A stretch of DNA of 64,000 nucleotides from positions 28,453,029-28,517,028 of the forward strand of contig OX467083.1 in assembly GCA_950106755.1 (NCBI GenBank). The letters are read 5' to 3'. Within the stretch, counting starts at the first letter, position 1. Each line of letters opens with the position of its first letter. The DNA is from Climacium dendroides (Eukaryota > Streptophyta > Bryopsida > Hypnales > Climaciaceae). The position numbers were made by a program, and so were the translations under genes. The notes under the pieces are model-generated. The model made no database searches. It was not told the DNA's origin and saw only the letters and a program-made list of their open reading frames with translations. Below are positions 35,929 through 64,000 of this stretch, in pieces.

Positions 35929-37097
35929 TCACTTCCTCGTTTTCTTCGCAGCAGGTTTCGCCGAGGGGGACTTGGCCGCAGGCTTCACGCTCTTCGGGCC
36001 TTTCTTCGGCGTCACCATCTTGCGCACAGTTGGAGGCTTCCTTCCTGCCGCGGGCTTCTTCGCCGCCGCTGCTGGAGCGGCCTTCTTCGCGGGGGCTGCA
36101 ACTTTCGGCTTCTTCGCAGCGGGGACCGGCTTCTTCGCAGGAGCCGCCACTTTGGCTTTCTTAGCTGGGGGCGCACTCGCCTTGCCCACGGCCTTGCGCT
36201 TCGTCGCCGTAGTGGGCTTCGCCACCTTCGTTGGCTTCGCAGTTGCGGCCTTGGACTTCGCGACAGTCGTCCCCGCACTCTTGCTCTTCACTCGACCCGC
36301 AGCCGACGGTTTCTTGACGACCTTCGCCTTGGGCACCACCTTCGGTACTGCTTTGGGAGCACTCGGAGCCTTCGCCGCCTTCGTGGGCTTCTTCAACTCG
36401 TCAGAGAGCTTGAATGAGTTCTTCACCTTGACCAGCTTCCCCGCCTTCGTCAAGTTCCGCAACTGGATCGTCAGCATCTTCTTGAAGTTCGGGGGCAGAC
36501 CCGTCTTGTACTTGTCCTCCAAGTACTTCGCGATGGCGTACTGGCTAGAACCCGTCCGCTCCTTCAACGCGCCGATCGCCTCCACAACCATCTGCCACCG
36601 TCCACAAAGAAACATCACGTCCATCAGCGCATCAACCACCTGCTCAAACTCCATACACATTCCTAACCCTACCACGTCTATTACCATTTTCACCAAACAC
36701 GACTGCATGGAAATGGCGCCCAGACGACGATGCAATTGTCAACTAACATACACAAAGAAAGAAAGCCAACAACTCCAGCCACCATCGCAACCAAAAAGTC
36801 TCCAAACGCAAAGCACACCACCCAAACTTACACAAACACACAGCATAGCACAAAGCATCCCCCACTCACCACGAGGTACGATGGGTGCAACGCCGGCGCC
36901 TTGGGAGCCTTCTGCTTCGCCACCTTCTCCTTCGGCACCTTCACCGCCTTCTCCTTCGGAGACTTCACCGCCTTGGGCTTCAGCTCCTTGGCCATTCTCG
37001 CCTTCGTCGCCTTCGCAGGCTTCTCGTCCGCCTTGACTTCCTCCACGGACTCAACTGCAGGGGCGGGGTCAACGGCCGGGGCGTCGGAAGCGGCCAT
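35929..37097 (-). CDS. Linker histone H1
   Basis: Histone H1 binds linker DNA at the nucleosome entry and exit and compacts chromatin. Two minus-strand exons, 36870-37097 and 35929-36591, encode 296 residues, normal for a plant H1. Residues 1-69 are an Ala/Glu/Lys-rich N-tail. The globular winged-helix domain (about 70-140) reads HPSYLV/MVVEAIGALKERTGSSQ, then AIAKYLEDKYKTGLPPNFKK and GKLVKVKNSFKL. The remaining 155 residues are a Lys/Ala/Pro tail with KPKVAAPAKK-type repeats, ending KKTRK. The intron (278 bp, GTGAGT...CAG, phase 0) cuts the globular domain after HPSYLV. All long plus-strand frames over this region are shadows of the Lys/Ala-rich codons. The frame is intact and the codons GC-rich, unlike the surroundings, so the gene is probably active. 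Confidence 0.95.
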
Positions 37098-40216: not shown

Positions 40217-41752
40217 TGTCGAGTAAACAGAGGTTTGTCTTAGGAAATTATAAGAATTCTAGCTGCAACCAAGAATGGTTTAAAACCAAAAGAAACGTCG
40301 TCGTAAACAAATCTTTAACCTCAAATGTCAAATCTTCTATACTCTCTTGAAATTGCTCCCCGTTGGCTTATTCTATTGTGGCTTTATAGGGATCAAGGGT
40401 CAAGATGGGGATAAGAAACTACAAGAGACGGGATGGATAGAACCAACAACTTAGCATAAGATACCATTAGTGGAAATGGCTCTTAGACTTTCAAACTTTT
40501 AAACTAAATTTCAGCTTTACTGTGAGAACAAGCAAGTCTTGATTATGAGGACCATCAACCCCACTTCGTCACCATGACACAAAATGAGGCTAAGCATTGG
40601 TTTTACCCAAGCTACCTACAACAACAAATGTTTACAATGAAAGACAAGTCACAAGCCACAAGCTACAAACACAAACAAGTCTTTCTTCAACTCCAACTCC
40701 AATTCCAAAGTTGAGCTTTGAATGAGTGCCATCTTTGCTTTAAAACTTCAAATGAAATGAATGATAGTTTTTGAAAAGTTAATACAATTATCTATTCTTC
40801 CTTCAATTTCAATTCATTCTAATATTTTGTCCATCATCTATGGCCACCTAGAGTTTGGGTCTTTAAAACTGAGGGCATAGATCTTCTTTCACTCCAACTC
40901 TCACAACTCACTTATATAAACTCTAAATTGAACAAATAATATTTTTATAGAAATATAACATCATTTCCTATACTCCCTCAAAATTTCATTTTCTATAGTC
41001 GTTCAAAGTTTTTATTCCTCAAAGGAGGCAACAACCTTTCTCCATTCAAATTAGCACAACTTTTGAATGCCAATTTTAAATTAAAAAAGTGACGGTTTTT
41101 TGGAAATATAACATCATGATACGTAACTCCTCAAATTCTCATTTCAAAATTCATCATACACTATACACAATGGCCCTCCAAACAAATTTCTAAAAACTAA
41201 AACAACTCTCTGAAAAAAAGGAGAGGCAACTTCTTCTTAAACTCCACCTTCTCCTCAACTTCCATTATTTTTTTACTTCCACTATACAAATCAACTGGAC
41301 ATCCTAACACCCATTGGCCATTATTATTGACCATGCATCATTTTTTATCCTTATCAAAAAGATTTATCATCTCTAAATTCAACTAAAAAATAAATTGTCT
41401 TCATTTTCTCTTACTACAACTTCATATTTATAAATACAAATTAACTTCTACTATATAAATAAAAAAAACTAGGATCTAACATGTATCTAATAGAAGTAAA
41501 AAAATAGAATTACAAGAGAAAATCACTCCATCATCTTCTAGTTGCGATTCTTCATAAAAAAAACTCTAGTTCAACATATTGAAATTCAAAGTGAAAAATA
41601 AATTATGCTACTTTAATTTGATGAAGCTTTAGAGAGGATACCTCTTCTTATAATAGATGACTTGCACCTCAATGGGAAAGTATTACCTTGAAGCTACTCA
41701 GCATAACATAAAATATGTATTTCTACACTATGTATGTATATAGAATACAACA
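40217..41752 (-). mobile_element. Copy X3 of the TGT...ACA family
   Basis: Collinear with the outer parts of X2. It starts TGTCGAGTAAACAGAGG and ends near GAATACAACA, with a 3' part matching gaggtttgtctt...gaatggtttaa in X2. The middle with the shared frame is deleted. No clear target duplication was found. Confidence 0.65.
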
Positions 41753-42239
41753 TTGTCATGTCATGAGAGAAGCGAGGTGTAGCTTGAATGATGTAGAGCT
41801 TGAAGATATATATGAAAAAACTTGGGGACTTGAAGGTGTTTTAGCTTGGACCCTATATTTGTAACTTCTACATGGTGGTAGAGAGACTTGTCTTTTTCAA
41901 AGTTGAGTCTCTTTATGATGGAGTGGGGCATTTGCCTCATAACTTCATTCTAATATGTAGATGTTCTTCAAGAACAATGTAGACTTGACTATTATATCAA
42001 TGGGTGAAAATGTGGTGAAAAAATGACGTCTTTTGCTTCAAAAAACTAGTTTTAAAATGTTTTTGGAGTACATATTTGTATTCTAGAGTTGCAAAAAGGA
42101 CTCAAGCTTGAGACTCATAGCTCTGGTTTTAAAAACCCTAAGCCTTGATTCATATTAGTGAGATAAAAGCATTATTAGACTTGCTTTGGATGCCTAAGCA
42201 TGTTAGGGATGGACTTTGAACAAGAACAAGAGTGTTTCA
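41753..42239. other. Spacer between X3 and the second minus-strand Gypsy
   Basis: Nothing recognised on either strand. Confidence 0.5.
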
Positions 42240-42599
42240 AGAATCTCAATGAAAGCACTAGGTTGTACTTTACTAGGATTACAAGATGTATTCAAAAAAA
42301 CAAGAGTACATAGAACAAGACTCTGGATCTAAAGCTAAAGCTGAGAGTTATGAACTAGTCATCAAAGTAAATTGTCGAGATTGAGGAACCTCTAAGTCTT
42401 GGATCCTAAGTTTTTTTGTGAAACTTAGAAGTTGCTTGAGAATCTTCCACAAGATTCCACATTGTTTGAGCTGTATTTGCAAAAGAACATCTTTTTTAAA
42501 AGCTTTCACAATCTTTTGGTCATCCATAATATCACCTCTCCATTCATTAGGAGAAAATTGAATACACAAAGAGACTTTTAATTTTCTTACTAATATTAA

Positions 42600-44465
42600 T
42601 TCTAATTGAATGAACATGGGGGTGGCTACATCATCATTAGAATCACTACTTAAAATTGCTTGTGGCCACTTGGCAAGTAAAAATTTGTGAGAGACATATG
42701 CTCCATCTTCTATGATAGAACCATTATGAAATTTATGAGATCATGAAGATGGATTGGGAAATGATGATGAATTTTTGAGTTTACCATGCAATTCTTGTTT
42801 TAATTAGTGAATTAAAAAAGTTCTTTCTACCCAAAATTTTATAAGATCGTAGAGATGGATTGCATAATGATGACAATTTTTTGAGTTCATTATGAGATTC
42901 TTGGCCTAATTAATAAGTTGAAAAGGATCTGTCCATCCAGACTTTGCATTATGAAGCAACCTCATTTAGAATTTGAAGGATTTTGAAGCTACATTAGGAA
43001 AAAATTGAATTCAAAAAGAGCAGTTTATGCTATTCTGCTTCAATTACATCTTGCAGCATTTCTTGGTCCTTTTGGTTGTTGTTGATGAAATTCTTAGATC
43101 TTTAGAAGTACATTCATGAAGTTTGAAGTTGATTTTCATATACACTCACTAATTAGATATCCATGCCTATAAACAAGATATTTCACTTGACCTCTTTAAA
43201 TTTTTGAATAAAAAATGTTTTGGTTTTATATTCTTAGCATTCATTTGTCTCTATTCAAGGTGATGTATTTTCATAGATGTTGGTAATTTCAATCAATATG
43301 CAACAACATTGATATGCTTCTCAAAGCAAAACGGTCTAATTCTGTGATAGTTAAATTTATCACATAGTTGAAAAGTCTTTATATTGCATTGTAGTAGCCA
43401 CACTTTATTCCTATTTGAAACTTTGGTTTCTCCTTTCTTTTTACATCAACACATTCTTTGTAGTGAGTTTGAATTTTTCTAAGATGTTTTTTCATTGTTG
43501 TATGCAACTCTTTTAAGCAAGTTGCAATATTCTTTGCTCCAAGACTCTCTACTCTCAATAATATTTTGAGTTTCAGATTGTATTCATAGTTGATATAAAA
43601 CAAAGTTTCTTAAATTGATGTATATAGACAATTATTATATGCAAACTCTATTAGTACCAATTAAAAATGTTCAATCATCTTGTTGATAGTTTATTATATG
43701 CCACAAATATTGCTTTAAGACTTGATTCATTTGCTTGGTTTGTCCATTCGTTTGGAGATGAAATGTTGGTGAAACTTTGATCTTTACTTGTAAAATTTCA
43801 AATAACAATTGCCAAAATTTAGAAATGAATTGAGGACCATGGTCAAATATAATATCTTTAGGTAAACCATGTTAATGATAGATATTGCCAATGAAAAGTT
43901 TGGTTGTTTCTTCTCTTATGATCATCTTTTTACATGGGACAAAATGTATAATCTTTGAAAATTGGTCTACTACTTTATAAATAGTGTCAGATTTAACTAA
44001 AGGTGGTAGATCAAGTAATAAATTTATAGAAATAGATGACTGTATATGGTTGCTTTGGAATTGGTAATGGTTGTAACAATCCTTATGAAAGCTATTAGGG
44101 ATTCTTCAAACAAAAATATATGTTGTTAAAAAGCACAAATTTTCTTTACAGTTTTCTACATTTGAGACCACTAAAAATAATGAGAAATGAGTTTAAATTT
44201 TTTTTTGAATCCGAAATGTCCAATAGTTGAAAGGACATGGTAGGCTTGCAAGATTTGGAGACTCAATGGTCCATTGGGAATATGCAAGTATTTTTCAAAG
44301 TATAGAAGCTTGTCTTTAATCTTGAAATTACTAGAATCTTTAGTGCCATTGCTAAGGCGTTGTTTGATATTAAGCACAAGAGAGTCTTTAGTTGAAGTTG
44401 TTTGAATCTCGTCTAAAAATTGAAATTCATTGGAATTGAAATACAAGCCACTTGTAAACAAAGGT
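42600..44465 (-). pseudogene. Integrase of the second minus-strand Gypsy
   Basis: At 44171-44461 the minus frame reads LLYFEKYLHIPNGPLSLQIL followed by the HHCC start (AYHVLSTIGHFGFKK). Broken core sequence follows to about 43650. The frame at 43379-43603 holds the linker LKELHTTMKKHLRKIQTHYK and VDVKRKEKPKFQIG, the segment before the GPY region. Confidence 0.65.
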
Positions 44466-44689
44466 GTTTAGAATTTAGAAATGGCGCCCATTGTTGATCA
44501 CACTTTGTTTCTCTTTTTTGGGGAATAAAGTTGAATTGTCTAGATAAAACATTAGAAAAACTTTGCTGCTTTTTTAATAGATGAATGACGCCAAAATCAA
44601 ATCTAGACAAAGACATATTTCAACAAGCTTGGACATAAGTAGACATGAAATATTCAAAGTTCTTGTAATTAGTATATACTATCACTTAG

Positions 44690-45760
44690 TAAGCAACACC
44701 TTTTAATAGGTGGCATCATTCTTGAAAGGAATCCACAAATGCAAGCAATTCCTTATAGTGGATTTTGTAATTGATTTTTGTAGCACTAAATTTTAAATGA
44801 ATAGCAACAGGGTGAAATTTTTTGCCTTTTCTTAGCTGCAATGGTATGCTCTTAAGGAAAAATCCAAAGTATTTGTCTCCATAAAAAAGGTTTCTAAAAA
44901 TCAATATGGATCAATATTAGGGCTATAATGAAGGGTTTTTTTAATATTTAGAAGGCTTTTCTATTTTTTGGCTCTAATCCAAATTACCTTCACAAGTAAC
45001 ATAAAGGGAGTGACAATCTAAGAATAGTTCTTGATGAACATTTGATAAAAGTTTGTTAAGCCAAGAAAACATTGAACATTACACACCATCATTGGTATTG
45101 CCTAATTTAGAATAGCTTGAACTTTTTTAAGTCCATTGATATAACTTTGTTTAAGATAATATATTTAAGGAATTCCACTTGAGATATATGAAAAGCGCAC
45201 TTTTCCAAATTTACATATAAACCAACATTCCGAAGTTTTTTGAGGATTAATTTTATATGTTCATCATATTATTTCACATCCTTGAAATTTATAAGAACAT
45301 TGTCCAAATAACAAACAATAAAGATGTTGAAAAATTCTTGAAATACTTCATTTATCAGGTGTTGAAAAATGGCAGGCGCATTTGTAAATTCAAAAAGCAT
45401 GATGTGTTGACATTGTATTCAAAATGGCCATACTTTGTCTGAAAAACAATCTTCCATTCATCACCCTCTTTAATACGAACTAAATCGTATGTTCTTCTTA
45501 GATCTATCTTAATATAAATCTTTGTTTGGTCAAGTTGGTCAAGAAGTTCAACAATTAGTGGTAATGGGTATCAATTCTTAACTACCACTTTGTTGAAGCC
45601 TCACTTGTTAACAAGCATTTATAAGGATCCAATCCATCTTTCTTTTTCACAAAAAGAATATGAGCACTAGTTGGAGACTTCAAATAGTGAGTGAAGTTTT
45701 TAGCTAAGTTTTTGTCAATACACTACTTTAATGTTAAAAGCTCATCTTGTGATAGGTTAT
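44690..45760 (-). pseudogene. RNase H and reverse transcriptase of the second minus-strand Gypsy
   Basis: RT is seen at about 45000-45750: a KYGHFEYNV box near 45430 (usual form RYGHFEY.VMPFGL), then NIFIVCYLDNVLI near 45290-45320. The catalytic YLDD is YLDN, so it is inactive. RNase H remnants (KINYKIHYKELLAFVDSF) are at 44716-44800. Confidence 0.7.
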
Positions 45761-46208
45761 AGTCTTATAAATGGGCCCAAAACGTAGTTGTGCACATTTC
45801 TCAAGGTTGATGGCACAATTGTATGGTCGAGTTTGAAGCAATATATACGCATTCTTCTTCTTAAAAACATTTTGATTTTGATAATCTTTGTATTGCTTCA
45901 GAATTATAGTTGCATTGGTAGTTTTACTAGCCACTAGAGTTGCATAAGCTACAAATACAGCTCTAATTTTTTTAGCTTGCATGAACACCCAATCTCTAAT
46001 AAATAATGATTTCAAAATTTTTTGACAAGTTGTTTTAGGTTTTGCAAAGGGCTCTAATATAGAAGATTCACTAGGAATTGAAGGAAGGTAGTACTATAGT
46101 TTAACTAGTCAATCTGAAGATTATATTTTTTAAATAAAGAGAGTCTGAAGATAACAATACTAGAATAAAAACAAATAGCATTATAGACTATGTGGCTAAT
46201 ATGTTTTT

Positions 46209-46499
46209 CTATAATTTCTTGCAAAAGATTGAAAAAATGATTTTGTAAGAAACATTTTTTAGAGATGGTGGTCGTTCATCAATAACCTCAACATGTACCA
46301 TTGTTGTCCATTGGATTAATGAGATTCTATGCAACATGACAAATGATTCATCTATAAAATATGTTGAGGCTCTTGAATCTATTACGGCATGTGTTCCAAT
46401 TTTCTTAAAACCTAAACATACAATGGTATAACAAGGCTCAAGGTTTGTAGATAATATAGGACTTGGAATTATTAATAATGATTTAGAATCTAGCCACAC
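46209..46499 (-). pseudogene. Protease of the second minus-strand Gypsy
   Basis: The open frame holds HAVIDSRASTYFIDESF, where active proteases read DSGAS, and then VHVEVIDERPPS, the same linker as in the first minus-strand Gypsy. It ends where unit D begins. Confidence 0.75.
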
Positions 46500-46501
46500 G
46501 G

Positions 46502-48718
46502 TGTCACATTATAAATGTACACATTATCTAAAATATATGCTTATATATTTTATTTGGTTGGATTTTAATTATAATAATATAGTGCAAAAGATGACATCAC
46601 TTGGAGAGACTTCAAGGTGATGCCTTGCTACCATATCTCAAATAAACTATAAAGAGAAGGGAACTACTTTGGAGCTTCATCAATTTGATGTAGTTCTCTT
46701 TATTTTTCTCTTTGAATTTAGTATGTCAAACTTGAGGAATTTTTTAAGTCTCAATATGAAGAGCTTCAATTGAAGCCTAATTTTGAATTCTCTTTGTTTC
46801 AACTATTAGAACACTTGTTAGAACATTCTCTTCTACGACTAAATCTTGCACCACTACATGAGCATTCAAAAGAAAAAGTTGGGTCTTCTTGATTGCTTAA
46901 GCAACCTCGTGTAGAGAAACAATAAAATAGGAACTTTTAGTGTTGATAATCTTGCTATAGATTGAGTATGCTGAACTTGGTAGTAGAGAAATAACATTTG
47001 AGGGATGCTTTAAAGACTTAAACAATGATTAATATTAATTTATGGTTAAACCTATTACAGGTAGCCATGGTCATCAACATTGGTTAGGTCTGGTCAATTC
47101 TTTGACTAAGGTAGACTGTACAAATTATATTGCAGCTACCATTAAATGCATGCTTAAGTTTTTACAAGTGGAATGATACTCTTTTTGAAACTCTATCTTT
47201 TACCTTTAATAGAAATATATTAGATCCTAATTGTTTTGGTTTTGTACTTAGAAATATTTTTAAAGGTTATTTGAAGTGTTTGAAGTTGAAGGAAAAATGG
47301 ATGAGGATAGTTTACTTTTTTGTAGACTTAAGAGGTTTTGTGGCTAAATAAAGAGTTAGATAAGGCTTTAAAAAGATCAAAAGGGATAGTCAACTAGCTT
47401 AAAGGTACCCATGTAACTTAAACATAGATTGATGTGGTCCTTGAGGTTTTATAAAGAGTCAAGGTATTCTTCTTTCTCCTTCATAGTTAGTTTGAAAAAA
47501 ACATATGTAATACGAATTTGTGAAAGAAATTTGGAAAGAATGTTTTTCTTGTTATTGTGATTTCAATAGATTATTACTCTTTTTATTTGAAATTTGGATG
47601 TAAAAGTTATGAGTAATGAAGTAAGAGAGGGTCCGTTGCCTATTAGGATCGAGGATCAAAACTTTAAGCACTTGTAGAAGTTTAGTTAGAATGTTTTTGG
47701 TTTTGAGTTTTGGATGAGTTGTGTATAAAATTATTAGATTTCTATAAAGATATGGCATTTTTAGTTTGGAGTTGTTTATAAAAGAGTCATGAGCATAAAA
47801 TGAAAGGAATGTAGAATAGTTGCCAAATCTAAGACTTAGAGATAATTCCAACTTTGATGGAGTGTTGAAAGCTCAGTTTCTATTTTTTAAAACTAAGACT
47901 TTTAGAGGATGTGTATCAAAAATTTATCTTTTTAAGAAAATATGGCACAAAGTGTTCAGAGCTTCTATAGGGCTGAAGCGTATTCTAAAGAAGAGAGATG
48001 TATAATTGCCATCAAATTTGAGAGTGTAGTTTCCAACAAGCTATAACAAATGGTCAATAATTTCTTTGGCCTTGAATTTTGAAGAAATTCTACTATATTT
48101 TTTTTGGATTTTCTAAAAGCTAAAACATTCTTGATTTGAAATTTTGGAGTAGCCATGGCATACACTTAAAGTATGATTACAATTTCAAAAAATTTTGCAA
48201 AGGCTTTTGATTTTGTATATGACCTATATGGTTTAGGTACATGGTATACACATGTATTGATATTTTATTTTATAAGTACCATACATGTATTTATATTTTA
48301 TATTTATATAATATTTACATATGATATTAATAAAAATATACATACTCAATTAATATGTACCATACAAATATTAGTAAGTGATATTTATATAGTTTGTATA
48401 CAAAATTATTATATCTTGAGGCAATGCTACATTTAAGTACTTCTAGATTATTCAGTGAATTTTGGACAAACCATCCAAAGATCTTCGGATAATTACATCG
48501 GGAGCTCTTTGGATGTTTTGTATAAATCTTCCAATGTTTTGCATTATCTCCTAATGACCATTTTTTTCTCCTAGTTATTATTGTTGATTTTGGACTTTTA
48601 AAAGTCTAGAAGTAGTTAAATGTAGCGTGGTGGTATTTGCACCCTCATACCCAAAGTTAAATTTGGTTGCAACCCAAAATCCAGAGGTTTTTCAAGGCAA
48701 AAGTTTGACAAACCAACA
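46502..48718 (+). mobile_element. Copy D of the TGT...ACA family
   Basis: Starts TGTCACATTATAAATG and ends AAACCAACA. The 3' end (ggttgcaacccaaaatcc... ) parallels the X1 end. The flanking 4-mers are ACGG and ATAA, which differ only by transitions. It carries the shared frame from about 46719 to TGA at 47174, with blocks FEFSLFQLL, LLKQPRVE and HGHQHW still legible. Confidence 0.7.
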
Positions 48719-50429: not shown

Positions 50430-51300
50430 TCCGTGTGCAATAATAGATAGTGATTGCCACCATCCAATAGGACGATTGACTTAGATTAATCATTGGTGCT
50501 AATGGAGGAAAATGTTATTGAAGGTTTTTTTTGTCCATGTTCCATAAATTTTTTGTTGTGGTATTAATCAAAGAATCAATGTCCTTTAGTAGAAGTTGAT
50601 ACTACAACAATTGAATAGCACTAAAGAAACTTAAATCAAGAACATTCATATTGGAGTAGTTGGAAGGTTGGTAGGTCATCATGATATCAAAATCGTCTTG
50701 CTTTAGGGCATCTGCCAAATCAAGTTCATTGTTGTTGGAATGGAGCTTAGCATTGTTGAATGATAATGTTGTTGCCAATTGTGGTCTTACTAGGCTACAT
50801 GTGTAGACATTTATTTTGGATTGTGAAGAAAAGCTTTGTGATCCACTTTGGTAATGTTCTTGATAATACAGGTTTGGTTTCTATCGTATCATGTGCCCCA
50901 TTAAAGAGGAGCCACAATTGTAAAGAACATATTTTTGGGAATAAAATGCTTATTTTTCATAGCTCTCAATGGTGGTCCTCTTCAAGCATCAAGTAAAAGG
51001 TTACCTTCATATGAATGAGGTAAAAACAACTTCTCGTCAATGTAGATCAAGTTCATTATGTCTTGAAACTGTGATAGATGGATTGGACTTTGTAAGATGC
51101 AAAACTCAAAACAAACAATTTTGTTTTGCTTTGTCAAAAATGTCTTGATTGCATTTGAGTAACACTTGATATCGTCATCCTAGAATTACTGATGTCAAGT
51201 TACTTTTGAAATGTTTATATGGGCAGCAACTAAGCAAATGTTTTTATATTGGAATATAGTATCTCTTCTAGCTTACTCATATCCAAAGCCTTTTGCTTGT
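50430..51300 (-). pseudogene. Mariner-like (Tc1/mariner, plant type) transposase pseudogene
   Basis: A DDD transposase that would excise and insert a TA-targeting element. Broken minus frames show, in order, MNLIYIDEKLFLPHSYEG (first Asp, near 51035), KNKHFIPKNMFF, NNAKLH near 50745 (usual DNAKPH, so the second Asp is Asn), and ALKQDDFDIMMTYQPSN then NMNVLDLSFFSAIQLL near 50640 (third Asp). A trailing LNNIFLH near 50510 fits the C-terminus. Order and spacing match plant mariner-like elements. Stops are frequent. I did not find the terminal inverted repeats. Confidence 0.7.
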
Positions 51301-51711
51301 GCTTGAGGACAAAGCTAGTTTGCGTGCCTAGAGCGGTGAGCAGTGAATGGAGAGCATAGAGCAGAAAAAAGAATAAAATAATGAACATTTAGTGGCAGTT
51401 TACCAAAAATAGAAATAAAAAAGGTTTAGGTCCAAATTTAGTAATTATTTGGACCTATTACCGTTGAATAAGGGTGCTCCTATGACCGTGGGAATGAAAT
51501 TATTCATGCACTTTTGACCACTATTACTAATGGATGGCAGCAAAATGTGAACAAAAATGTACATACCTTTGAAATTTTCAATGTCAATGATGATTCAATG
51601 AGTAGTCAAAATGTACAACAACAACTTCGTGGTGGCCCTTTAAGTCTCACCACTGTTTCATTCAATCTAAAAAGAGAATTGTACAATGTAGCCTCGGACT
51701 CAATAGCATCT

Positions 51712-54700
51712 CTAAGTTGCTGGTTGCTTAAGTAGCACCATCTGAATAATACACTTAATTTCGTTGAAGCTGAAACTAGGAGCGTGCATAAAAACATCTA
51801 TCTCACTGTCCAATCCACAAACTACATGAAATATGTAGTACAGATGCTTACAATTTGTCCATTGTCCACGCTTTCCCAATGATTTTTCCGACATGTCTTT
51901 GAAGAAGGGGCATGAACAATTAGGAAATTGGCCAATCGTAATTAAATATTGCGAAATTTTGAGACCATTTCGGGACTCAAAGGTGATGATGCAACCCAGG
52001 GCAAGAATTGGTACCATAGAAACCTTCAAAATTTGCCCAATGACAGTAAGAGCAGATGCACAGGAATTGGCGTGTTTCGTTGAAGGTGCCTTTGGATTCT
52101 GTTTGATATACTTTCCGAATTTGCGCTTTGGAAAGTCGTTAGAGAACTCTGGGGTAGGATATTCTGACAGGTCCACCAATGACCCCTCTTCCCTGAACAA
52201 CTTCCTTGGAGAGAGCTCCAGACGTGGTGCCAATTGAAAACCAGTGTTCTCCAAGTCTAGGATCTCGTTCTGTGTAAGATTGGTGCCAATCTTGACAGAC
52301 CAAACTTCTGGAACTACAGGTTTGAAAACCACCCACTTATGACGGGTACCCTTCACGCACCTCTCAATGTTGTCGTTGCAGAAGAAGAACTGCATGCGCT
52401 CTTGTTTATTCTTCCTATTGTTGTGCATGATGCCGTTGTAAGTTGGTGCAACCGTATTCTTTCCATCCTGTACAATTCGTGCCACACATTTTTCTTGGTG
52501 ATGGCCTGTTGAACGAAGCAAGCCTTTGCTGACATCTTTGGAAGTCGCGCGATGTCTCATTCATGCTCATTGCATACTGTTTCTTGTACTCCTTCACATG
52601 CTCCATGGTTGGAACTGTAGTAGGTGTTTCTAGTTGAACCGGATTATTATGCAGGTCTTCAGTTGCTTCTTGTTGTGCGTCACCCTCTGAAGTGAGATCA
52701 TAAAATATTGTACCTCTTGCTCGCGTTTGTACCCGAGGGTGAGAGATGCTAATCTTGTCAAGTCTATGAGAGTCGAACTCCGACCCAGGAGGAAGATCTG
52801 GTTTGCGCTTGAGGGAGAGAAATATTTCCTCACCTTGAAGATGAGGCTCGCTAGTGCAAAAACCTTAAGCTCTAGGCATGTTTCGAAGCGCTTGATGAAA
52901 CGATTTCAGGTTGCCAGAACGTTGGGCGGTTCGTTGGGCGACTCGAAGCAACAATTCTTCTTTTCCAGGTCTAGTACCCGGTCTCTTACCATTCAAATAC
53001 TGGTAGTAGGCAACCATTTGCATGAAAGCACGTACGTAATCATCGACAGTTGCCACATGCAAGTCATTACCTCGTTTACCACTCTATTGAAGCCACTTGT
53101 TGTGTACAGTCTCCTCTAAATTGCATGAGGGCATTTCAGCAAGCTAGCCTCGGAAAGGGCCTGTGATGTCAAATGAATGGTAGTATAATTTAGAGTGAGG
53201 TTACAACTTCACAGAAAACTAAAAGAAAAAAGGCCCGGAGCAAAGTGTGAACTTACCAAATCCATAAAACCACCCCATTGGCGATAGCGAAAGTGCCAGA
53301 AAGCAAGCCATAGGTCAAGACGAATGACTCCTTCATTAGCCATTACCCCGGAGGAAAGCCACCATGATCTGATAGCAAGGTACCGTTCTTCAGCCTCTGC
53401 TAACGACTTGGCATTCTTGTATTGCATGCACAATTGACGATGTTGTCGTTGCAGGTCCGCCCGAATGTCAGCCTTTGTATGTTTCTCCAATGACTGGGTC
53501 CAATGGAACAAACAAGTACGTTCTTGGTCTTCCATAGGAATTGAAGCATCACCGCTACCATACACAATACGAATTGCATTCCAGTTTGCTTGCGTACTGT
53601 CTGCCATGAAGCCCTTGAATTGTACGTTAGAAACGTTGTGTTTGGCCACAACAACATTCAAGTTCTTCGAGAAGATGATTTGAGCGGCAACATCTTCCGA
53701 CTGCATATTACACACTGCAATGGTCATTACCCGACAATAGGTAGCATCATAAACATGGCAGGCCATAGAAGTCCAGCCCTTTACACGCTTTACATGGTCG
53801 AACATCATCCATGCATTCTGTAAATCTCCACCTAGCTGCATTCTTGTCACGAGATCAACTCCACTTCCTGGCCCGATCTCAGACATCTTGAAAACAAAGA
53901 CCTTGTTGGACTCAGACCCTTGGCCAAGGAATTTGTTCTTCTGGACAAATGCCCAGTAGCTAGACCCTCTAAGTTTGGTGATGCTGTCCATGACTCCAAA
54001 GCGTTTCAAGTACCGAAACGTCGTGACTTGATTCCGAATACTCGGGGAAGACATGTGTTTGAATTTATTAAACACCGGTATGAGCTCATCAAGAGTAAGT
54101 TCCTTCTGCATTGCTCCATCTGCAGAAAGAAGCAATTCACCAAGGAATTCCTTGGTGGCTTCAAGGACAATGGCAGAATTAGTTGTTGTTGGAGTCTTCT
54201 CTACTTGTTCACCAATGAGGCTCTTTATCTTCTCAGCGACATCCCTGTATTCACCAATCTTTACAGGATGACAATGGGTTCCGAGGTACACACATGCACG
54301 AGTCATATTTCCATGACCAAGAATATAATAAATCTTAGCCAAGCACCCATCTAAGCATGACGGAGAAACCTTGCAGATTTTACACATGACAGTTGAGCCT
54401 TTTGGAGGGTTAGATCCAACTTCAAAGGTGAACAAGGAGACTCCATCCCATTCGGTTTTGTTAGCTTGGGAGGACCGGTGCACACGAAATAAATAATCGC
54501 TAGCTGCGTTGGTACATTGCAAATGACCTAAGTACGAAGACATTCTAAATGTTAGACCCATGTCATTCTTGATATTGGAGGTGATGGTGCGAGTCCAAGC
54601 ATGGCCATTGTGGCATTTGTCCATGCCATGAAGAAGCTTTGCTAGTGATTGTGATGCATATTTCTCCGGCAGAGGGAACTCAAACATCACGTCGCCATCA

Positions 54701-55384
54701 AACCTAGGGGGAAGGAATTTCACTCTCTCGGGTTTTATTTTGGTAAAGTCTACTTTAGATAAGATGGACTTCGACCCTTTCCTTGCAGCTAATTTTTTGA
54801 GACAATCAACAACGCTCATATAGTCATCAATCCGTGGCGGAATCGGAGGCTTAGAAGTACTTGGATGACTACCTTGCGATGAATTTGTGTCATGCGAAGG
54901 GTGACATATTACAGTAGGATTGAGGATTGGAATAGTGGAAGACGACAATCTACTGGAGAGCGCATCTTCATAATCATCACTCAAGAGATGGATGATACGT
55001 TCGCAAGGCTCAATCTTAACCTTTCGGAGCATAGGTGTTTACAGGGTGCATGTAGATGACACCCTAGGGGTGAGGATCTTAGTGGATGCACCTTAAAGAG
55101 GATCTTTTAATCCATACACTCGGTACGTCCCCGACTTCAGAATCCAACACTGACCTTGATCATTCATAGAGGACTCATGACCGACCTATAGTGTGAAGAA
55201 GTTCTCCGGAATCAACATCAAAGACCTCCTCATCAACATGCATAGATTCTTCTAGAAATTAAAAACGAAGATGCAAATGAAGAGCACTGACTGTGCACTT
55301 TCCATCAGCTCCTACTTGAAAAGAAATAGGAACTCCTTGGCCATCAGCATGAATTAGCACCATGGGAGGATTTTGAGAATTAGC
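51712..55384 (-). pseudogene. Mutator-like (MULE) transposase, FLYWCH-like N-terminus and SWIM C-terminus
   Basis: Cut-and-paste transposase of a Mutator-like DNA transposon. A long exon at 53256-55032 encodes 592 residues. Residues 173-255 hold Cys-rich sequence and a GTHCHPV box, like FLYWCH/WRKY-GCM1 zinc fingers. The MULE core follows, with VYDATY (D429), FMADS (D478) and CLFH (C507/H510). A GTAAGT donor at 53256 joins an AG acceptor before 53143, where the frame continues LAEMPSCNLEETVHNKWL then SGKRGNDLHVATVDDYVRAF, interrupted by TAG (53084-53086) and TAA (52865-52867). A frameshift between 52560 and 52415 passes to a last frame with a SWIM zinc finger, CSC...CKH (about 51835-51920). 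A probable first exon (MANSQNPPMVLIHADG) lies at 55259-55384, but its splice to the main exon is unclear. This copy is dead. Confidence 0.85.
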
Positions 55385-55486
55385 CATTGCAATGGAGAAA
55401 GAAAAGACACGGACAACATGGGAATTGTGAATAGAATTTAAATCCAAGAGTTCTGCAGGTATATTTTGATGCAAGAGGTTATGCAA

Positions 55487-56303
55487 ATGAAGACATAGAC
55501 AGCTAGAATTAATAAAGAGGGTGATTAAGAGACGTTTTAATTAGAAAAAATGACGAGAGTCATGTATTGATGAAAAGGATATATTTTTTTAAAAGTTGCC
55601 GGCGCATGTCAAATAGGTGGATTGCTTGTAATTCTGTAAGTATAATAATAAAGGGTGTTGGCATTATGAAATAATTATACAATAGAATTGTGAATGAAGT
55701 CTAATCCATAGTATCAATAGATGGTGGTTCAATTATATAGATTTGCCATTGTTAGAGAATACATGTTTGAAAAAAGGCCTTTCATCGGGGAACTACAATG
55801 AACCATAATGTAGATGTTAGTTTGAATTACTTTTATTTATGGTGGATTTCAAATTTACAAGGACAACGAACTGGCGGCGAGTGTAAGTGTAATAGGGACC
55901 CACTAGATTTTAGTGACGGTGAGAGTTAGATTGCTAGGATAGCCTTTCTATTTATGAAAGATATGACAATCTAAATAAAATAAACAATCTTGAAAAGTAT
56001 AGACATCTAATTGGAGTATTCAAGTAGTCATAATTTACTTCAGACTTGAAGTAGAGCGTTGAATGAGCGTATTTAGGATTGTTGGAAATATTGTCAAGGC
56101 CGCTAGATTAAGCTTACAAGGTTGTACCATCGAGAGCATAAAGATGTAGAAAATGTCACTTCAGTGACTATTGAGATTCGATGTGCGTGATGATTAGTAG
56201 TATTAACAAAGATTGATATACAGAGAAAGAGTCCGTGATTGAGTATTTCAAATTCAATTGCTTGTTGTTGAGAAACGTCTGTAGTAAGGACATTGCCACA
56301 TTC
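55487..56303. promoter_or_regulatory. Intergenic region between two divergent genes
   Basis: About 0.8 kb between the MULE transposase (leftward) and the ParB-methyltransferase-like gene (rightward). No frame or repeat was seen. By position it would serve as promoter for both, as inference only. Confidence 0.35.
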
Positions 56304-56453
56304 CACTACTAGAAAATTTCGTATTTCTGTTGTTTTGGTCGCGTTGATCCGGTCAAAATCTGACAGAAATCTGTTGAAACCAACATATTTCTGTCAGATT
56401 TTGACCGGATCAACGCGACCAAAACAACAGAAAAATGAAATTTTCTAGTAGTG
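56304..56453. mobile_element. 150-bp CACTA-type foldback MITE with TTC target duplication
   Basis: Starts CACTACTAGAAAATTT and ends with its complement AAATTTTCTAGTAGTG. The arms of about 67 bp are nearly perfect reverse complements around a 16-nt centre. A perfect 3-bp duplication TTC flanks it (56301-56303 and 56454-56456). CACTA termini and 3-bp duplications are hallmarks of the CACTA (En/Spm) superfamily. Confidence 0.93.
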
Positions 56454-57558
56454 TTCTCCAACTCAATAGAAGACAGTATAGTGGAGAGCTTCATGATGTT
56501 CTATTGAGCCAAATGCAGGAGGGAGATAGGAAGAAGAAGCGGAGGAGTGGGTTTCATTATTCATCTAAAAAGCAACTAGCCACATCTAGAATGTTTAGAC
56601 AACAACTTCAACGTTCAGGCATAGACCTTACTAGTACAACTAGAACACTTTCGTATCAAGGTGCTTTGTTGAAAGAAGTTGTTGAGACTCTTCCATTGGA
56701 AGGCGAGATATCAGGATTTGCAGGATCGCGAGACAATCAACCATTCATGTCTGAGTGCGAGATTGAAGAAGAGTTGTTAAGTGAAGAACAAAGCAAAGTA
56801 AGTATCCATTGGTTGAAGAATATCTTTGATGTCCTACAAAATAATGTGGTCTGTTGCAAATCATTCTTTAGATTTTGAGCATATCGATGTTGATTGTGGA
56901 ATTAATAGTAACTGGAAGAGGATTTTGGTCCAAGCGCTCATTTACCTCCGAGTGCACTAGAATGTTCAAGCACTCTTTGCATCTTGCAGCCATATCCTCT
57001 TCCTTGGACGTCAATTGCAATATGGTTTGCTTGAGTTCCTGTTACAAGTATAATATAAGGGTGAATTAACATTGATATGTCCAATACCAAGTCATTGGGG
57101 TATAGGGTTTTGTTACTAGAAGCTCGAAAATGACGATACTTAGATCAATGTTTCAGAAGGCGGCATTAGTGTCAGAGTAGGCGCAAATAGAGGAGGCAAG
57201 TGGAGAGCAGTTTCAAAAGACCGATCAAGACAAAAATAATCATGACTACGAGCTACAACAGAACAACCAAGGCGATGAAGATCTGGACGATTGTGCACAA
57301 AGCACACCCTCAAAGGCTTCAAATACAGTAAGTCACTCCATCATTGCACTTTCATCTATTTTTTGATCTCTCTACAGACCTCAAAGGTCCTCTTCTAAAT
57401 TGAATGAATCACGTAGTTGGAATGGGGCTTCACCTCCCCTCCGCAACATTGAAGAGCACCCACGAGCAGTGGAGACCGGCTCACATGTACCAAATGTCCA
57501 CAATAAAACTAGAGTGTTTGGTTATCAAGGCTCACTATTTGATTTTTGAACCCTCACA

Positions 57559-58420
57559 ATGAAGCTTCGGTGCCGAACACTCTTTGGGGCAGGCCCGTTG
57601 CCATCTTGTTTCGAACTGTTGTCTCCCCCCTTGACGTTAGGTTGTATCCACCAACTGTAGGAGAGGGCTCAACTAAGCCTCCAAAATGAGGCTTCAGTGC
57701 CGAATCCTCTTTGGGGCTGGCTTGTTGCCATCTTTTTTTGAATTTTTGTCTCCCGCCCTTGACGTTAGGTTGTATCCACCAGTTGCAAGAAAGGGCTCAA
57801 ATGGGCACCCAAAATGAGGATTCGGCGCCGAACCCTCTTTGAAGCGGGCCCGATGCCATGTTGTTTTGAACTCTCGTCTGCCCCCGTTGTTGTAAGGTTG
57901 TACCCACCAGTTGTAGGATAGGGCTCAAATGGGCCCTCTAAATGAGGCTTCGGCGCCGAACCCTTTTTGGAGCTAGCTTAGGATTGTCTAGCCGCTTGAC
58001 AGGCCGCCCGCCCACCCACCCATCCATGCCCATCCGATTAGCCTCTCGCCCGCTTGAAATCCGCCTAACATCAATCAACGACATGTTGACCTTTTTTTTT
58101 TCTCAAAATAAGAGGCTTAAGCACAAATTTAGGGGTACCAAGTATGAAATTAAGAAAACTACTTCATTTGGCATGTCCTAAGTATGAATTTGAAGGCCTG
58201 TCCCCTACCTTTGACATCAAATTGTACCCACCAGCTATAGGAGAAGACTCAAATGAGCCCCTAAAATGAGGCTTTGGCGCCGAACCTTCTTTAGGGCAGG
58301 CTCGTTGCCATCTTGTTTTTTAAACTCTTATCCACCCAGTGACCTATGGATGCACCCACTAGTTTGAGAGGGGGGTTCACAAAAGCCTTGCAATGAGTCT
58401 TTGGTGTCGAACTCCCTAGA
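57559..58420. repeat. 127-bp tandem array with a TTCGGCGCCGAA palindrome
   Basis: atgaRgctt(c/t)ggYgccgaac starts at 57559, 57686, 57814, 57942, 58266 and 58393. The steps are 127, 128, 128, 324 and 127. The long step holds about 196 bp of unrelated insert (57970-58200). Each unit also carries aggttgtaYccaccag and agggctcaaatgggc. The core palindrome is perfect in units 3 and 4 and worn in the others. It lies in an intron of the ParB-methyltransferase-like gene. Confidence 0.88.
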
Positions 58421-59157
58421 TAACTTGGTGGAATTATATTTCGATTTTTTTTTATAATGTAAAAATTACAATAAAAAATGGCCTTTGCTAAGAATTCCAT
58501 GGGAAAGAAGTCTCAAAAATACAATTTTCTTCTATGAGATAATAGTCTAGTTTGATTTCATACTTTGTAGATGCCTACAACAAGGAGTTTTTATCGTTTT
58601 TAGAAATCCTTAGGTCAAGTGGTGTAGCATCCTCCCAAAATTTTAGCTCCAAATTCATAGTACTTCCAACTCCAAAAATTACAAGTGTAACATATGACCG
58701 AGGGTTCCTTTTAATTTATATATGTCACACTTGTAATTTTTATTTTATTTCATAAGAAAAATATGAATTATGTTTGGAGTAGTCATATGCACCTTAATTT
58801 CAAATTTCAACTTGTTTGCATTAATACTCTAAAAGTAGTGATTGAATGAAGATTGAACAAACAAGTTATGACACCAAGTAGTACAAGTCATTCTTGCATT
58901 CATCTTACAAAGTCCTAAATTTTCAAGTCTTCAACATCTCCAAGGTTTAGAAGCCGTGGTAGGAAGGTGCTAAGTACATTGGAGTTAAGTAAAGGTAGAG
59001 AGGAATAGCTCAAGGATGGGTGACCGAGGGAACTAGGTTGAAAAAACCTTCTTCTTCTCGCGGCTTCACCTGCGAAGCCCGCGGAGCTCGGGAGATTGAA
59101 AACCTAAACCCAAAACCGCCCTTGACTTGTCCGCTGCACCCTCAACTTGTCCTAGCA
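58421..59157 (+). other. Intron sequence between the two palindrome arrays
   Basis: AT-rich to 58970, then GC-richer. A 125-codon plus frame starting at 59020 runs into the second array and has no family similarity, so it is not called a gene. Confidence 0.45.
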
Positions 59158-59445
59158 AGCATTCGGCGCCGAATGCTCCCAGCGCTTGCCTGCTGTCCGC
59201 AACGCCCTCGACCGCTCGACCTATCCCAACAAGCATTTGGCGCCAAATGCTCCCAGCGCCTGCCTGTTGTCTGTGTCGACCTACTGTCCGCTGCGCCTTT
59301 GACCTGTCCCAGCAAGCATTCGGCGCCCGCCTATTGTCCTTGTCGACCTGTACATGGGCTTGTACCCGCTTGCTATTCCAACTGTTTGTATCCTTGAGCT
59401 GTTTACACCCGCCTGTTGTCCAGCAAGCATTCGGCGCCAAATGCT
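59158..59445. repeat. Second array: 20-bp GGCGCC-centred palindromes, four copies
   Basis: Copies at 59158-59177 (AGCATTCGGCGCCGAATGCT) and 59232-59251 (AGCATTTGGCGCCAAATGCT) are both perfect palindromes. They differ by a matched pair of changes. A third (59315-59327) is cut after its first half, and a fourth (59426-59445) is a mixed form. Flanks such as cccagcgcctgcctgttgtc repeat too. Spacing is 74, 83 and 111. Confidence 0.9.
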
Positions 59446-59638
59446 CCCAACCCTGATTCCACGCAACTTCTCTCACACCCTCGACCTGTCCACCTTTGGT
59501 TTGTACGTAGAATGGCTAGCTCCTCTATAGTAAGACTAAGATCCCAAACCCCTACACTCTTCAATTTGTATTCTTCAAACCTAAACCGCATATTGCTTCT
59601 TTTTTCTCAAATTACAAATGTTTTCTAATTTTGTGTAG

Positions 59639-60739
59639 GTTGTCGCGCATTCACAACTTGAGCATAAAGGTCTTCAATCTGAAGAGCAACTCGGAGTTCT
59701 TGATGTCATTCAGGTAATTCTCTTCATTCTTAACTCTTGGAAATGTGGCATAATCTTTGGGCATATATTTTTTTTGGGTATTAAATCTTTATTGTACATA
59801 GATTTTAATGAAGTATGTGCCTTGTCCAAGTTTTTTATTTCTCATGATTTGCATTGCCATTAATTGCATGCCAGAATTTGTTACTTTCTGATTCTGAGGA
59901 TTCTACTATTCCGAAATGTCCAATCGGGCTGCGAGACTCAAAGGCAGGAGAGCAAGCAAGAAGGCTTTATCAAAAGTCTGATTTTGTGAAGGTTCTCGAT
60001 AGTATGCGCATCCCATTGGGTTGATTCTATGTCCCCCTCTGTAGGATGAGTCCTCTTCCAAGAGTCCGACCAATTCAAGAGGTTGATGTCGCTACCTTGA
60101 AAAAACGATTTGAGAGGGGCTACATCGACGGTGACCGTGCATGTACATATCCATTTTTGATGACCATATGTCATCTACGGATAACACTGAGGAGCGCATA
60201 GCTTCTTGGGACCCTCATTGGCATGATGTCAATGAGCGCTTTGAAAATCAACTTCAGTCTAATCCCGACTATGTTGCATTCCAAGGGAAGATGTTTTTTT
60301 GTGTAGGATGGCAATCATAGGTTCACAGCTTGGTGGCGCCACATCAATGCTCAACATGTCGATGATCTTCGATGGCACTATTCCGTGTTTTGCATTGTTC
60401 TCGACCCCAAAGGACGTATAACATCGTTGCTCAATTGCATGCACGATGTCAATTGGTGAGCACATTTCTTTCATTTAGATTTTATTTCACTTATACTCTA
60501 TTTCATATGTTGTTTAATTCACTCTAACAACTCTATTTTTTAGGTCTACCCAACATGATCATGTCAAGACTAATTTAACTGCTAAGTTGCAACGAATTCG
60601 GTACTATGGTGGACTTAACCTTGACGATTTTAAGGACCTGCTTACCGAGGAGGAGTTCAATACATGTTTCAAAGTGAAGAAGTCGCGTCCCACCTAGTTT
60701 CCTCTTACAATTGACGTGTTCATATCTTTTCTTTACCGA
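59639..60739 (+). other. Segment coding the ParB/sulfiredoxin-like domain
   Basis: After two exons (VVAHSQLEHKGLQ...LDVIQ and LLLSDSEDSTIPKC...) the frame reads MSPLPRVRPIQEVDVATLKK and, about 70 codons on, DGNHRFTAWW at 60307-60336. A VRPI start, a spacer, then DG-x-HR-x-x-A is the pattern of the ParB N-terminal/sulfiredoxin fold, where the DGxHR box binds nucleotide phosphates. A tail NWSTQHDHVK...RIRYYGGLNLDDF follows. One extra AT at 60166-60169, a T-run slip at 60293-60300 and the TAG stops break it. Confidence 0.6.
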
Positions 60740-62739
60740 GTAAGTGATTCTATTAATTCATTATTCTTACTATATTGTCTTAAAATACATTCCTCATCTC
60801 TTGCTATTGTCATTGTGTTCTAAATTTCCTTTGCTTTTCATTTTTTCAGCAAGATATATCTTATGCTGCCGATGATGCGGCCATTGAGTATCACAGAACG
60901 ATACCAGTTGAGAAGATATCAACCGAGGGAGTTTGGGATGCTATGGCATTGGCTACAGACACTATGGTGAAAGCCATAAAAGCCAAGGACTTTGTAAAGT
61001 ATCTTGCCGTTGCAAACCCCAAGAATGGCGAGGCTTTCTTTGATGAGGTAAATTCATTATTATCTCATATCTTTCTTTTCTTTAATTTCATCGCATTCAT
61101 GGTTTTCTTTATCCGGGTTTTATTAACTCTAGTTCTCTTTCATAAACAAATCAATTCTCATTTCAACCTCTTTAAGAAGACTGAAATGACAATTGAGAAG
61201 TTGCAAAAGGTAGCAAGTGCAGCAGTTGAACCACGCTTCAAGGCGCGCTGGCTCCACTGGTGGAACTCCTTCTCCATTCTTCGAGCCTCTTTTCGCTTCT
61301 TAGTTACTGATGTCAAAGAGAGCATCTTGGATACTTGGCTCAACCAAGCTACATTCTGGGCTCAGGTACTTCCTCCACTTTTCATTTAAATACATAGTTG
61401 TCATTCTATTTGGCTCTTTACTTTTACCAATGCCACTCTATATCTAATTTTCTCTTTCTTTGTCACTACGTAGCTCGAGGAAATGTTTATTGTGCATTTC
61501 GAAGAACTTTGTGGGGGGGGCGAGCTTTTGTTGAATTGGGAGGCCTCTCCTGGATTATTGAAGCCCTCAGATTATATTGAGAGCTAGCGTATCCTGTTGT
61601 GGGAGAAAGCATTCTTTCCATTCCTTCATCCAAACATCAAGCCTCCTTTTTTAAAGAGTACCAAGCTTGACAATGTCTCATCAGCAGACCTTGCTATAAA
61701 GCGGCTACTTTACAGGTTTGTGTTTTGTTTCATCATTTGTTGGGAATTTTACTCATTCTCAATACACTACACACTTCTTATGTTTTGTATCACATTTGCA
61801 ATTGCTTCACTTTTTTCTCTGATTATTTACTTTTATTCTTATTTTCTTCTGTTTTTCTGTTGTAGGTATGTAATGAGAGAGCTCATGCCTAAGAATGCAC
61901 TTGGAGATAACAATTGCCCTCCATTCTTTGGAGCATGGATTCAGCCATCTTTAGATCTTTGCATCTTCACGCCCATGCAGTTGAGGAAGTTTTCTACTAT
62001 TCATCTCCATGGTGGTGGTTGGTATTTGGAGTACCCTGTGAACTTTACTCCGGATGAAGAGGTGGAGCTTCGCAATAGCATTGTTTGCACTATACCTCCA
62101 CCTCCAGTTCCAGATACTGAGGATGAGGTTGTATTCTTGGACTTCTCGCAGTCACCTCATGCTGCAACAGAAGATGGCACCTCCTCAAAGAGGAAGCGCT
62201 TGAGGAAGGCGGACAAGGAGAAGTTAGTTAGAGATGTAGAGGAGCAAGCTGCAGCTGTCGAGAGGGCTATGGCAAAAGCACTTGCAAAAGTGGCTGCTAC
62301 CAACGGTGTTCCTTTGCCTTCTTCTTCAGATATCTCTGTACCTGTTGATGTTTCTGGTTACTCTCTCCCTATTATGGATTCACATGCAGCAGGGTCAAGT
62401 TACATGGAGACCAGTCGAAACGTAGTGCACAATCGCATACAGCACGTACGTACTATGTCTAGGTCTTCTGCACCACTTCTTGCTACCTCTTCTGAGTCAT
62501 TCATTCAAAATGCCTCGGTGCATTCTATCATGGATTCTTTAGGAGATCCAAATGGTCCTCCTCCGCTTTGGACCCAACTGCATGACTTCATCTCCCGGGT
62601 ACTTTTATTAAACCTTGATCTACAATTTTTTCCTTCTTCTATTTTGCTAGTTCATTGATATTACAATTTTTTTTACTTCTTATTCCTAATTGTGTCATTG
62701 ATGTTCCAATTTATTTTCTAATTCAAATTTCTTTTCCAG

Positions 62740-63771
62740 GTTGGAGCAGGGAGGTCCCGTCATGTGTCTAATGACAAATGCAAGCACACTGGGATTGATT
62801 TGCTCATTGCAAACATCCCAAAGAACTTGCCAGTGCATGGGATTTCTGTACCTAGTACGGTCATTCCACCTTGGAATGTTCGACCGGAGAAGTATGTTGA
62901 TACCATCTTTGAATTTGCAAAGATTTATCTGCATGACGATGCAGCACTTCTCCTTTTCCATCCAAATGACCGCGATGTTCTTATCAACGTGGAGGAATGT
63001 GCGGAGACTTACAACTTCCGCGTGGAGTGTGATTGGTGGGGCATAAATGATCTTCCGTTGGCTTCTCCACGGAATCCATTTACTACGGTAATTGTCATCT
63101 TTATCTCTTCTTTTAGTTATCATCCATTCAGTTTTTTTCTTTAATTCTCTTTTCATTTTCTTATTTTATATTTTATATTTTATATTTATATTTTCTTATA
63201 TATACTAGTGAACATTTTCTTTTGGCAGTGCACTCGTTTTGGGGTTCAATTATTCATACGGAGTGGCAATGTCCAATCCAGATTCTCCATTGGCGAGAAT
63301 TTTGAATACCATGACTACTTCTACAACTTTGTGAGTTTTGACTCACAACTCATGCATGGGAGTGTTCCATGGCGAGGGCCTTGGGAGAAGAATCCGGAAT
63401 TCGTGAAGTCCTATATTGAGGCTCTCTCCAAAGTTGGAGATATTATATTGGATTGGAATGCCTCTACAAGTTATTTCTTACTTTCATTCTTTTTTTGCTA
63501 CAATTTTTTCAGTATTTAATCTTGCATTTCATAATCATATCATATTTGTTTTAATAGTCAATTTCTACGGCAGGTGCTTCCATTCGTGCTTGCCAATCTC
63601 TTAGCAGGCACATTTTGGCCTTTGAGGAAGACCCGGAGATCTTCAAGGCTCTTTTGGAACCCCTCATCCCCACCTCGATTCCTGCTTCTGTAGTTCAGAA
63701 GAGGAAAGCTGTACGGTGTGGCATGGGAGATCGTGCAAAGAAGAAGCTAAAACTCAACCGCTTTCCTTCTT
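62740..63771 (+). other. Segment coding the beta-class methyltransferase-like domain
   Basis: Three exons in phase. The first carries GIDLLIANIPKNLPVHG, which aligns with motif IV (usual D-PP-Y), then EKYVDTIFEFAKIYLHDDAA and LLLFHP, then the YNFRVECDWWG strand. The last two carry GDIILDWNAST/SASIRACQSL and HILAFEEDPEIFKALLEPL, like motif I (LD.F.GSG.T..AC...GR....E.D...). Motif IV before motif I is the beta-class order. Both key motifs are altered (NIPK for DPPY, WNASTS for FxGxG), so catalysis is doubtful. The family assignment is by pattern recall. Confidence 0.5.
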
Positions 63772-64000
63772 GTGAGTAAGTTCTTCCCTTACTTATGAAT
63801 TTGTTATATTTCTTACATTTTATGGTCTCAACTTGGTTTCTTATTCTTTAATTATTTTGCAAAGCTCCAGCATTACCCTCATCTCCTGCTGCATCGATGC
63901 CTATGGTGTTTACACCATCAGCCAGCCTATTTCTTCCTTGCTATGCAGCAGACGCAGCGATGGTGATGGCAGCTTTGACATCTCTACCTAAACGGCGATC

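Follow-up and report, generated by a model that had tools for sequence, protein, structure and literature searches.

The accessory gene of the Ectocarpus transposon Sola1-1_Ec32 lies within the ends of a large DNA transposon and encodes a product of 1104 amino acids with ParB-like and N4-cytosine/N6-adenine (m4C/m6A) methylase domains, and green and red algal transposons with such accessory genes are cited in the same report (PMC12477816). ParB-methylase fusions are also numerous in phages and prophages of Paracoccus, including the ParB-Tls locus, according to PMC6536676; phages and prophages had been named as a source of such fusions in the first-pass annotation of the DNA studied here. Among Arabidopsis VANDAL transposons, VANDAL21 encodes VANA, VANB, and VANC, and VANC proteins bind noncoding motifs in tandem, whose arrays grow or shrink from copy to copy (PMC10398659). 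Here, a stretch of 64,000 nucleotides from the moss Climacium dendroides (assembly GCA_950106755.1, contig OX467083.1, positions 28,453,029 to 28,517,028 of the forward strand; the whole stretch is hereafter called the window) was analyzed, and it contains a decayed two-gene Mutator-like element (MULE), in which a transposase gene stands head to head with an accessory gene of the ParB-methylase type.

The Climacium element resembles Sola1-1_Ec32, as described in PMC12477816, in carrying an accessory gene with a methylase-type domain within the ends of a DNA transposon. It differs in that the transposase is of the MULE/IS256 type rather than the Sola1 type and the host is a land plant; moreover, the moss accessory gene has an altered motif IV, and its ParB part is not confirmed by profile. 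With the phage ParB-Tls genes, it shares an N-terminal ParB-type motif and an m6A/m4C methylase-type domain, whereas those genes lie near terminase genes and the moss gene belongs to a eukaryotic DNA transposon, contains introns, and has an altered catalytic motif. The likeness to VANDAL elements consists of extra coding capacity beside the transposase and of noncoding tandem repeats with a short motif that vary between copies; in contrast to VANDAL21 with VANA, VANB, and VANC, only one accessory gene is present here, and an anti-silencing role is proposed by analogy. A literature search for a ParB-methylase gene in a MULE or a land plant, made mostly outside subscription journals, found none among the entries listed. 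As far as these searches go, the kind of gene is known from algae, and the MULE setting, the land plant host, the altered motif IV, the association with several transposase groups, and the repeat arrays are new.

Anatomy of the two-gene element

The element spans positions 51307 to 64561 (13,255 bp), of which the last 561 bp lie past the window edge and were read from 20 kb added to the right of the window. Its ends were set by comparing copies. The left terminal inverted repeat (51307–51356) pairs with the sequence running inward from 64561 (positions 512–561 of the extension); the repeats are about 50 bp long and imperfect, with 35 of 43 positions identical in register from position 8 onward (51314–51356 against 64554–64512). 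This inverted pair was seen only with the extension, and no terminal repeats were found within the window alone. MULEs typically have terminal inverted repeats (TIRs) of 100 bp or more, and non-TIR MULEs exist as well. The flanking duplication of 10 bp falls within the 8–11 bp of MULEs; its left copy lies at 51297–51306 and its right copy at positions 562–571 of the extension, with 9 of the 10 bases alike. No credible MULE terminal repeat lies between the two genes among the best 20 inverted pairs listed.

The transposase gene occupies the minus strand. Its first exon (53212–55387) contains an open reading frame (ORF) of 609 amino acids at 53212–55038, and alignment with homologues places the start further up at about 55387, within the ORF 55259–55540, so that the frame is broken between 55038 and 55259. 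The structural model of a homologue contains ubiquitin-like, GCM-type, and DDE/RNase H-like parts in this region. By-eye comparison with a relative, L001, identified the middle of the second exon, which is broken over several frames (52561–53125), and the C-terminal part, an ORF at 51715–52560 with a C-x-C ... C-x-H stretch that we take to be SWIM-like. Searches returned 204 homologous proteins, of which 120 were listed. The modeled fold is of the IS256/MULE type, with a DDE transposase as in other MULEs; the bacterial IS256-family transposase ISCth4 (PDB 6xgx) differs in that the plant protein adds the ubiquitin-like, GCM-type, and SWIM-like parts. No confirmed relative came out of IMG/VR scans with the transposase, the transposase alignment, and an accessory protein of another moss (P0001, see below). 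A viral structure library searched with the transposase model contained a single match below E 0.001, to a bracovirus protein (E 8.9e-6).

The accessory gene was recognized as 18 coding pieces on the plus strand from 56450 to 63998, 8 of which end directly at GT. Pieces e01 (56450–56797) and e02 (57181–57327) are followed, after a long intron, by e03–e09 (59639–60739), which include a DGNHR box at 60307 and are broken in the window copy, by e10–e13 (60850–61716), which form the middle part, and by e14 (61867–62598). The beta-class methylase-like region is formed by e15–e17 (62740–63773), and e18 (63867–63998) reaches the window edge, where the gene runs off; the element ends at 64561 and not at 64000. 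Three stops and two frame shifts interrupt the gene at five points, at each of which 8 to 10 of the 10 other copies compared are open. The transposase start and the first recognized plus-strand piece are about 1.06 kb apart, and 150 bp of this distance are a CACTA-type miniature inverted-repeat transposable element (MITE) hairpin at 56304–56453, present in the window copy alone. The arms of this MITE (73 nt) are 96% complementary, its site is empty in all 10 other copies, and another copy of it lies outside the element in copy C3b.

These data bear out what the first-pass annotation had said of the layout, namely two divergent genes about 1 kb apart, both decayed, and they support its proposal that the two genes are one MULE-type transposon, since the pair is found repeatedly within common inverted ends flanked by 10-bp duplications. 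Taken alone, this anatomy (a 13.26-kb element with a MULE/IS256-type transposase, a divergent accessory gene, shared ends, and a 10-bp duplication) is practically certain.

Recurrence and constraint of the gene pair

The genome (412.6 Mb in 123 contigs) was searched for further copies, and the 10 best-ranked of 25 close copies besides the window were retrieved for comparison. Both genes stand head to head in all 10, and each of these copies has matches to all 18 accessory pieces, a few of them partial, with the divergent arrangement kept. All 10 retain the right end and nine the left end; among the nine copies that keep both ends, eight have the duplication with at most one mismatch. Over the 11 copies including the window, the 10-bp duplication is exact in six, has one mismatch in three (the window copy among them), is absent in one, and is not assessable in one. 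The accessory and transposase genes are not chance reading frames because protein homologues exist and because all 18 pieces were matched in every copy. The accessory homologues include three Ceratodon purpureus (moss) proteins with locus tags of chromosomes 1, 6, and 9 (M758_1G310400, 6G158200, and 9G084500); one of them, P0001, is 32% identical to the joined window pieces, and in the methylase region the remaining two share 92% identity with P0001. L008 and L009 are additional relatives from a bacterial bin that seems to contain plant DNA. This GTDB cyanobacterial bin, AVDCRST_MAG81, holds contigs L001, L008, and L009 of the present plant transposon family, probably as contamination.

The association extends beyond the close copies. 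Protein search gave at least 26 transposase matches at 84–100% identity, including the window, and at least 46 at 57–62% (72 were scored out of 1300 candidates, a second piece having been dropped from the 73 rows). When the genome was queried with two methylase exons, 150 of 1472 candidates were scored, and 117 of the rows listed were kept after second-exon rows of already counted genes were dropped. A methylase exon lies within 30 kb of at least 36 of the 72 transposases, 23 among the 26 close ones and 13 among the remaining 46, in every case divergent and on the expected side; the null model gave 0.37 on average and at most 3. Seen in reverse, a listed transposase lies no more than 30 kb away for at least 65 of the 117 accessory matches (23 of the 33 close, 10 of the 16 middle, and 32 of the 68 distant ones); the 10 close matches without a listed transposase exon in that range, like other unpaired ones, may be remnants, may belong to transposases beyond those listed, or may stand alone. 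A third transposase group, found with query P0075 (64 scored of 1364 candidates; 64 of 78 rows used, first pieces being dropped), has a divergent partner in at least 28 of 64 cases, against a random mean of 0.70 and maximum of 4; the null models of both pairing counts use rough guesses for the lengths of six contigs. A distant accessory query (57 of 123 rows used after second pieces and already counted close copies were dropped) finds some partner for at least 36 of the 46 transposases at 57–62% identity, divergent in 14 cases and on the same strand in 22, a count that has no null model. In 21 of the 22 same-strand cases, the match lies 3.9–4.04 kb upstream and covers only about residues 79–230 of the L008 ORF, which precede the methylase domain, and the methylase part was not seen. 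Several transposase frames of the 57–62% group with a same-strand partner are open for 1204–1259 amino acids. The accessory gene is thus found with three transposase groups.

Constraint was estimated as the ratio of nonsynonymous to synonymous substitution rates (dN/dS) pooled over non-independent pairs of copies, using pieces with more than 90% ungapped cover. The ratio is 0.49 for transposase exon 1 and 0.47 for the C-terminal ORF; in the accessory gene it is 0.40 for e01–e02, 0.47 for the DGNHR part, 0.65 for the middle part, 0.48 for e14 (three pairs), and 0.61 for the methylase part. These values suggest that selection acted on both genes until the copies decayed, and less strictly on the methylase part.

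Methylase-like and ParB-like parts of the accessory protein

Canonical DNA methylases have a catalytic motif IV of the form (D/N/S)PP(Y/F/W) and a motif I loop of the form FxGxG. In the window copy, the motif IV position precedes the motif X/I region, which is the order of the beta class. PF01555 matches the joined methylase region in five of five members from three lineages, with a best E value of 1.5e-6 and, for member 1, a score of 26.7 bits, equal to the cut-off of 26.7; against P0001 alone, the E value is 0.034. A profile of the region finds DpnA (E 0.0077) and, across almost the whole region, CcrM (E 0.089), and tblastn with the accessory protein gave weak matches to phage methylases (best E 0.01). 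The methylase assignment of the first-pass annotation thus stands as far as order and profile are concerned, but the catalytic motif is not of the ordinary type.

The motif IV tetrapeptide reads DIPE in seven and DILE in one of the eight other copies read, DAPE in all three Ceratodon proteins, and DVPE in both L008 and L009; in five aligned rows, x-L-P-V comes next. The window copy has NIPK at the motif IV position, which looks like that copy's own decay. The S-adenosylmethionine (SAM) loop is ASTGAS in the five aligned rows; in eight copies it is ASTGAS (4), ASTSAS (3), or ASTGAF (1), and in protein P0122 it is ANTGAS. Neither the window copy nor its relatives show (D/N/S)PP(Y/F/W), and the protein is not classed as an active methyltransferase. 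Judging from the aligned motifs, the change in motif IV is shared across lineages and is not a random loss. Ordinary methylation is doubtful because the DPPY motif reads D-x-P-E in three lineages.

The DGNHR box, which we take to be a ParB/sulfiredoxin-like motif, occurs in the window copy and in L008; at this position, 9 of 10 other copies read WDGN and one reads WDDN. On the box, the ParB-like family phrog_1033 matched one of three members weakly (E 0.25). The PF02195 profile matched none of three members. Based on this motif and the one weak profile match, ParB homology appears weaker than had been claimed.

Palindrome arrays and the possible role of the accessory protein

Two arrays with TTYGGCGCCRAA palindromes (57824–59433) lie in the long intron that separates e02 from e03. 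One belongs to a repeat of about 128 bp at 57555–58379, and the second array, at 59128–59454, has palindromes of the AGCATTCGGCGCCGAATGCT type. All 11 copies contain TTYGGCGCCRAA sites, 3 to 26 per copy and 6 in the window copy, and none occurs in the retrieved flanks of the 11 copies. These palindromes are candidate binding sites. The genome contains 345 palindrome sites, against 23 for a control pattern. Among the 50 sites for which locations were listed, a known match lies within 15 kb of 15 of the 21 sites of the TTCGGCGCCGAA form, 5 of the 6 of the mixed form, and 1 of the 23 of the TTTGGCGCCAAA form, which is probably a host matter.

The first-pass annotation had raised protection of the ends, marking of sites, and evasion of silencing as conceivable roles for a partner gene. 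A possible mechanism is proposed from these features. The transposase would move the element. The accessory protein would descend from a phage-type ParB-methylase fusion and would now be mainly an element-specific DNA-binding protein rather than a general methyltransferase; it would recognize and gather on the palindromic GGCGCC arrays inside the element and would counter or mark host silencing of its own element, as VANC does for Arabidopsis VANDALs. Binding to its own DNA and action on silencing are considered most likely because the element combines a methylase-type domain and an altered active site with a variable array of palindromes. The favored explanation as a whole, a decayed two-gene MULE with an element-specific DNA-binding accessory protein, is slightly more probable than its negation, and the mechanism, drawn by analogy, is tentative and somewhat doubtful. 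A more specific version, rather unlikely as it stands, is that a plant MULE lineage recruited a phage-type ParB-methylase that lost ordinary methyl transfer and became an element-owned reader on TTCGGCGCCGAA arrays, which might act as a parS-like centre that expands and contracts and might keep the element open against host silencing in a VANC-like manner from a wholly different protein origin.

Several observations weigh against the favored explanation. PF01555 was not matched by the single window exons tried or by the ORFs of L008 and L009, which stop within motif I. Besides the missing PF02195 match, PDB searches with the ParB-type stretch gave nothing or unrelated names and no ParB, and an AlphaFold model of a Ceratodon accessory protein, which did not cover the ParB-type part, has a predicted local distance difference test (pLDDT) score of 31, too low to show a fold. 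Phage tblastn with this stretch gave a single hit at E 9, and with that of L008 none. Among the listed sites, 22 of 23 of the TTTGGCGCCAAA form and 6 of 21 of the TTCGGCGCCGAA form lie away from listed matches, the TTTGGCGCCAAA form resembles E2F sites, and the arrays may be passive satellites.

The two main alternatives are an active methylase and a transposition cofactor. If the accessory protein were an active N6-adenine/N4-cytosine methyltransferase that its ParB-like part guides to the element to write a bacterial-type mark, its beta-class domain, recognizable by Pfam and PDB profiles, and the weak phage methylase matches would be readily explained, and this function is the one proposed for the Ectocarpus relative in PMC12477816; the non-canonical motif IV in the copies, the Ceratodon proteins, L008, and L009, together with a motif I loop of the ASTGAS rather than the FxGxG type, makes this unlikely. 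A role as a transposition cofactor in end pairing, integration, or target choice, rather than in silencing or marking, would agree with the co-mobility of both genes and with the constraint on both, and the second gene of maize MuDR is a parallel; it is held to be fairly unlikely, the palindrome arrays lying inside a long intron and not at the ends.

The arrays themselves could serve a host factor such as E2F that drives element expression in dividing cells, the accessory protein having another target. The TTTGGCGCCAAA form matches the E2F consensus, and the accessory gene carries the arrays in its 5' half; however, many element sites are of the TTCGGCGCCGAA form, and a number of sites from 3 to 26 per copy is more like an expanding array than a promoter, and this possibility too is judged improbable. 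MULEs capture gene pieces, and the accessory gene could be a host gene captured by chance, as in the Pack-MULEs mentioned in PMC12477816; this passenger origin was rejected as very improbable, being contradicted by recurrence with three transposase groups, by retained introns, and by dN/dS below 1. Two unrelated decayed elements lying side by side by chance were likewise rejected, with next to no probability left to them, given the shared ends, the duplications, and the same gene order in 10 of 10 copies.

Elsewhere in the window, long weak inverted repeats at 40716–48171 (57–66% identity) suggest another old element to the left of this transposon. By eye, minus-strand ORFs at 215–1927 resemble an ARC6-type plastid division gene, and a minus-strand ORF at 35929–36738 resembles histone H1. 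Rfam and tRNA scans of the window found nothing.

With the moss elements, a ParB-methylase-type accessory gene is now seen in land-plant MULEs, where it occurs in many copies and beside several groups of transposases, so that such genes are no peculiarity of algae. Taken with the algal examples already published, this suggests repeated use of such proteins by transposons. The shared change in the catalytic motif poses the question of an alternative role for the protein. With element ends, copies, and a candidate binding motif defined, direct testing in a tractable plant has become feasible.

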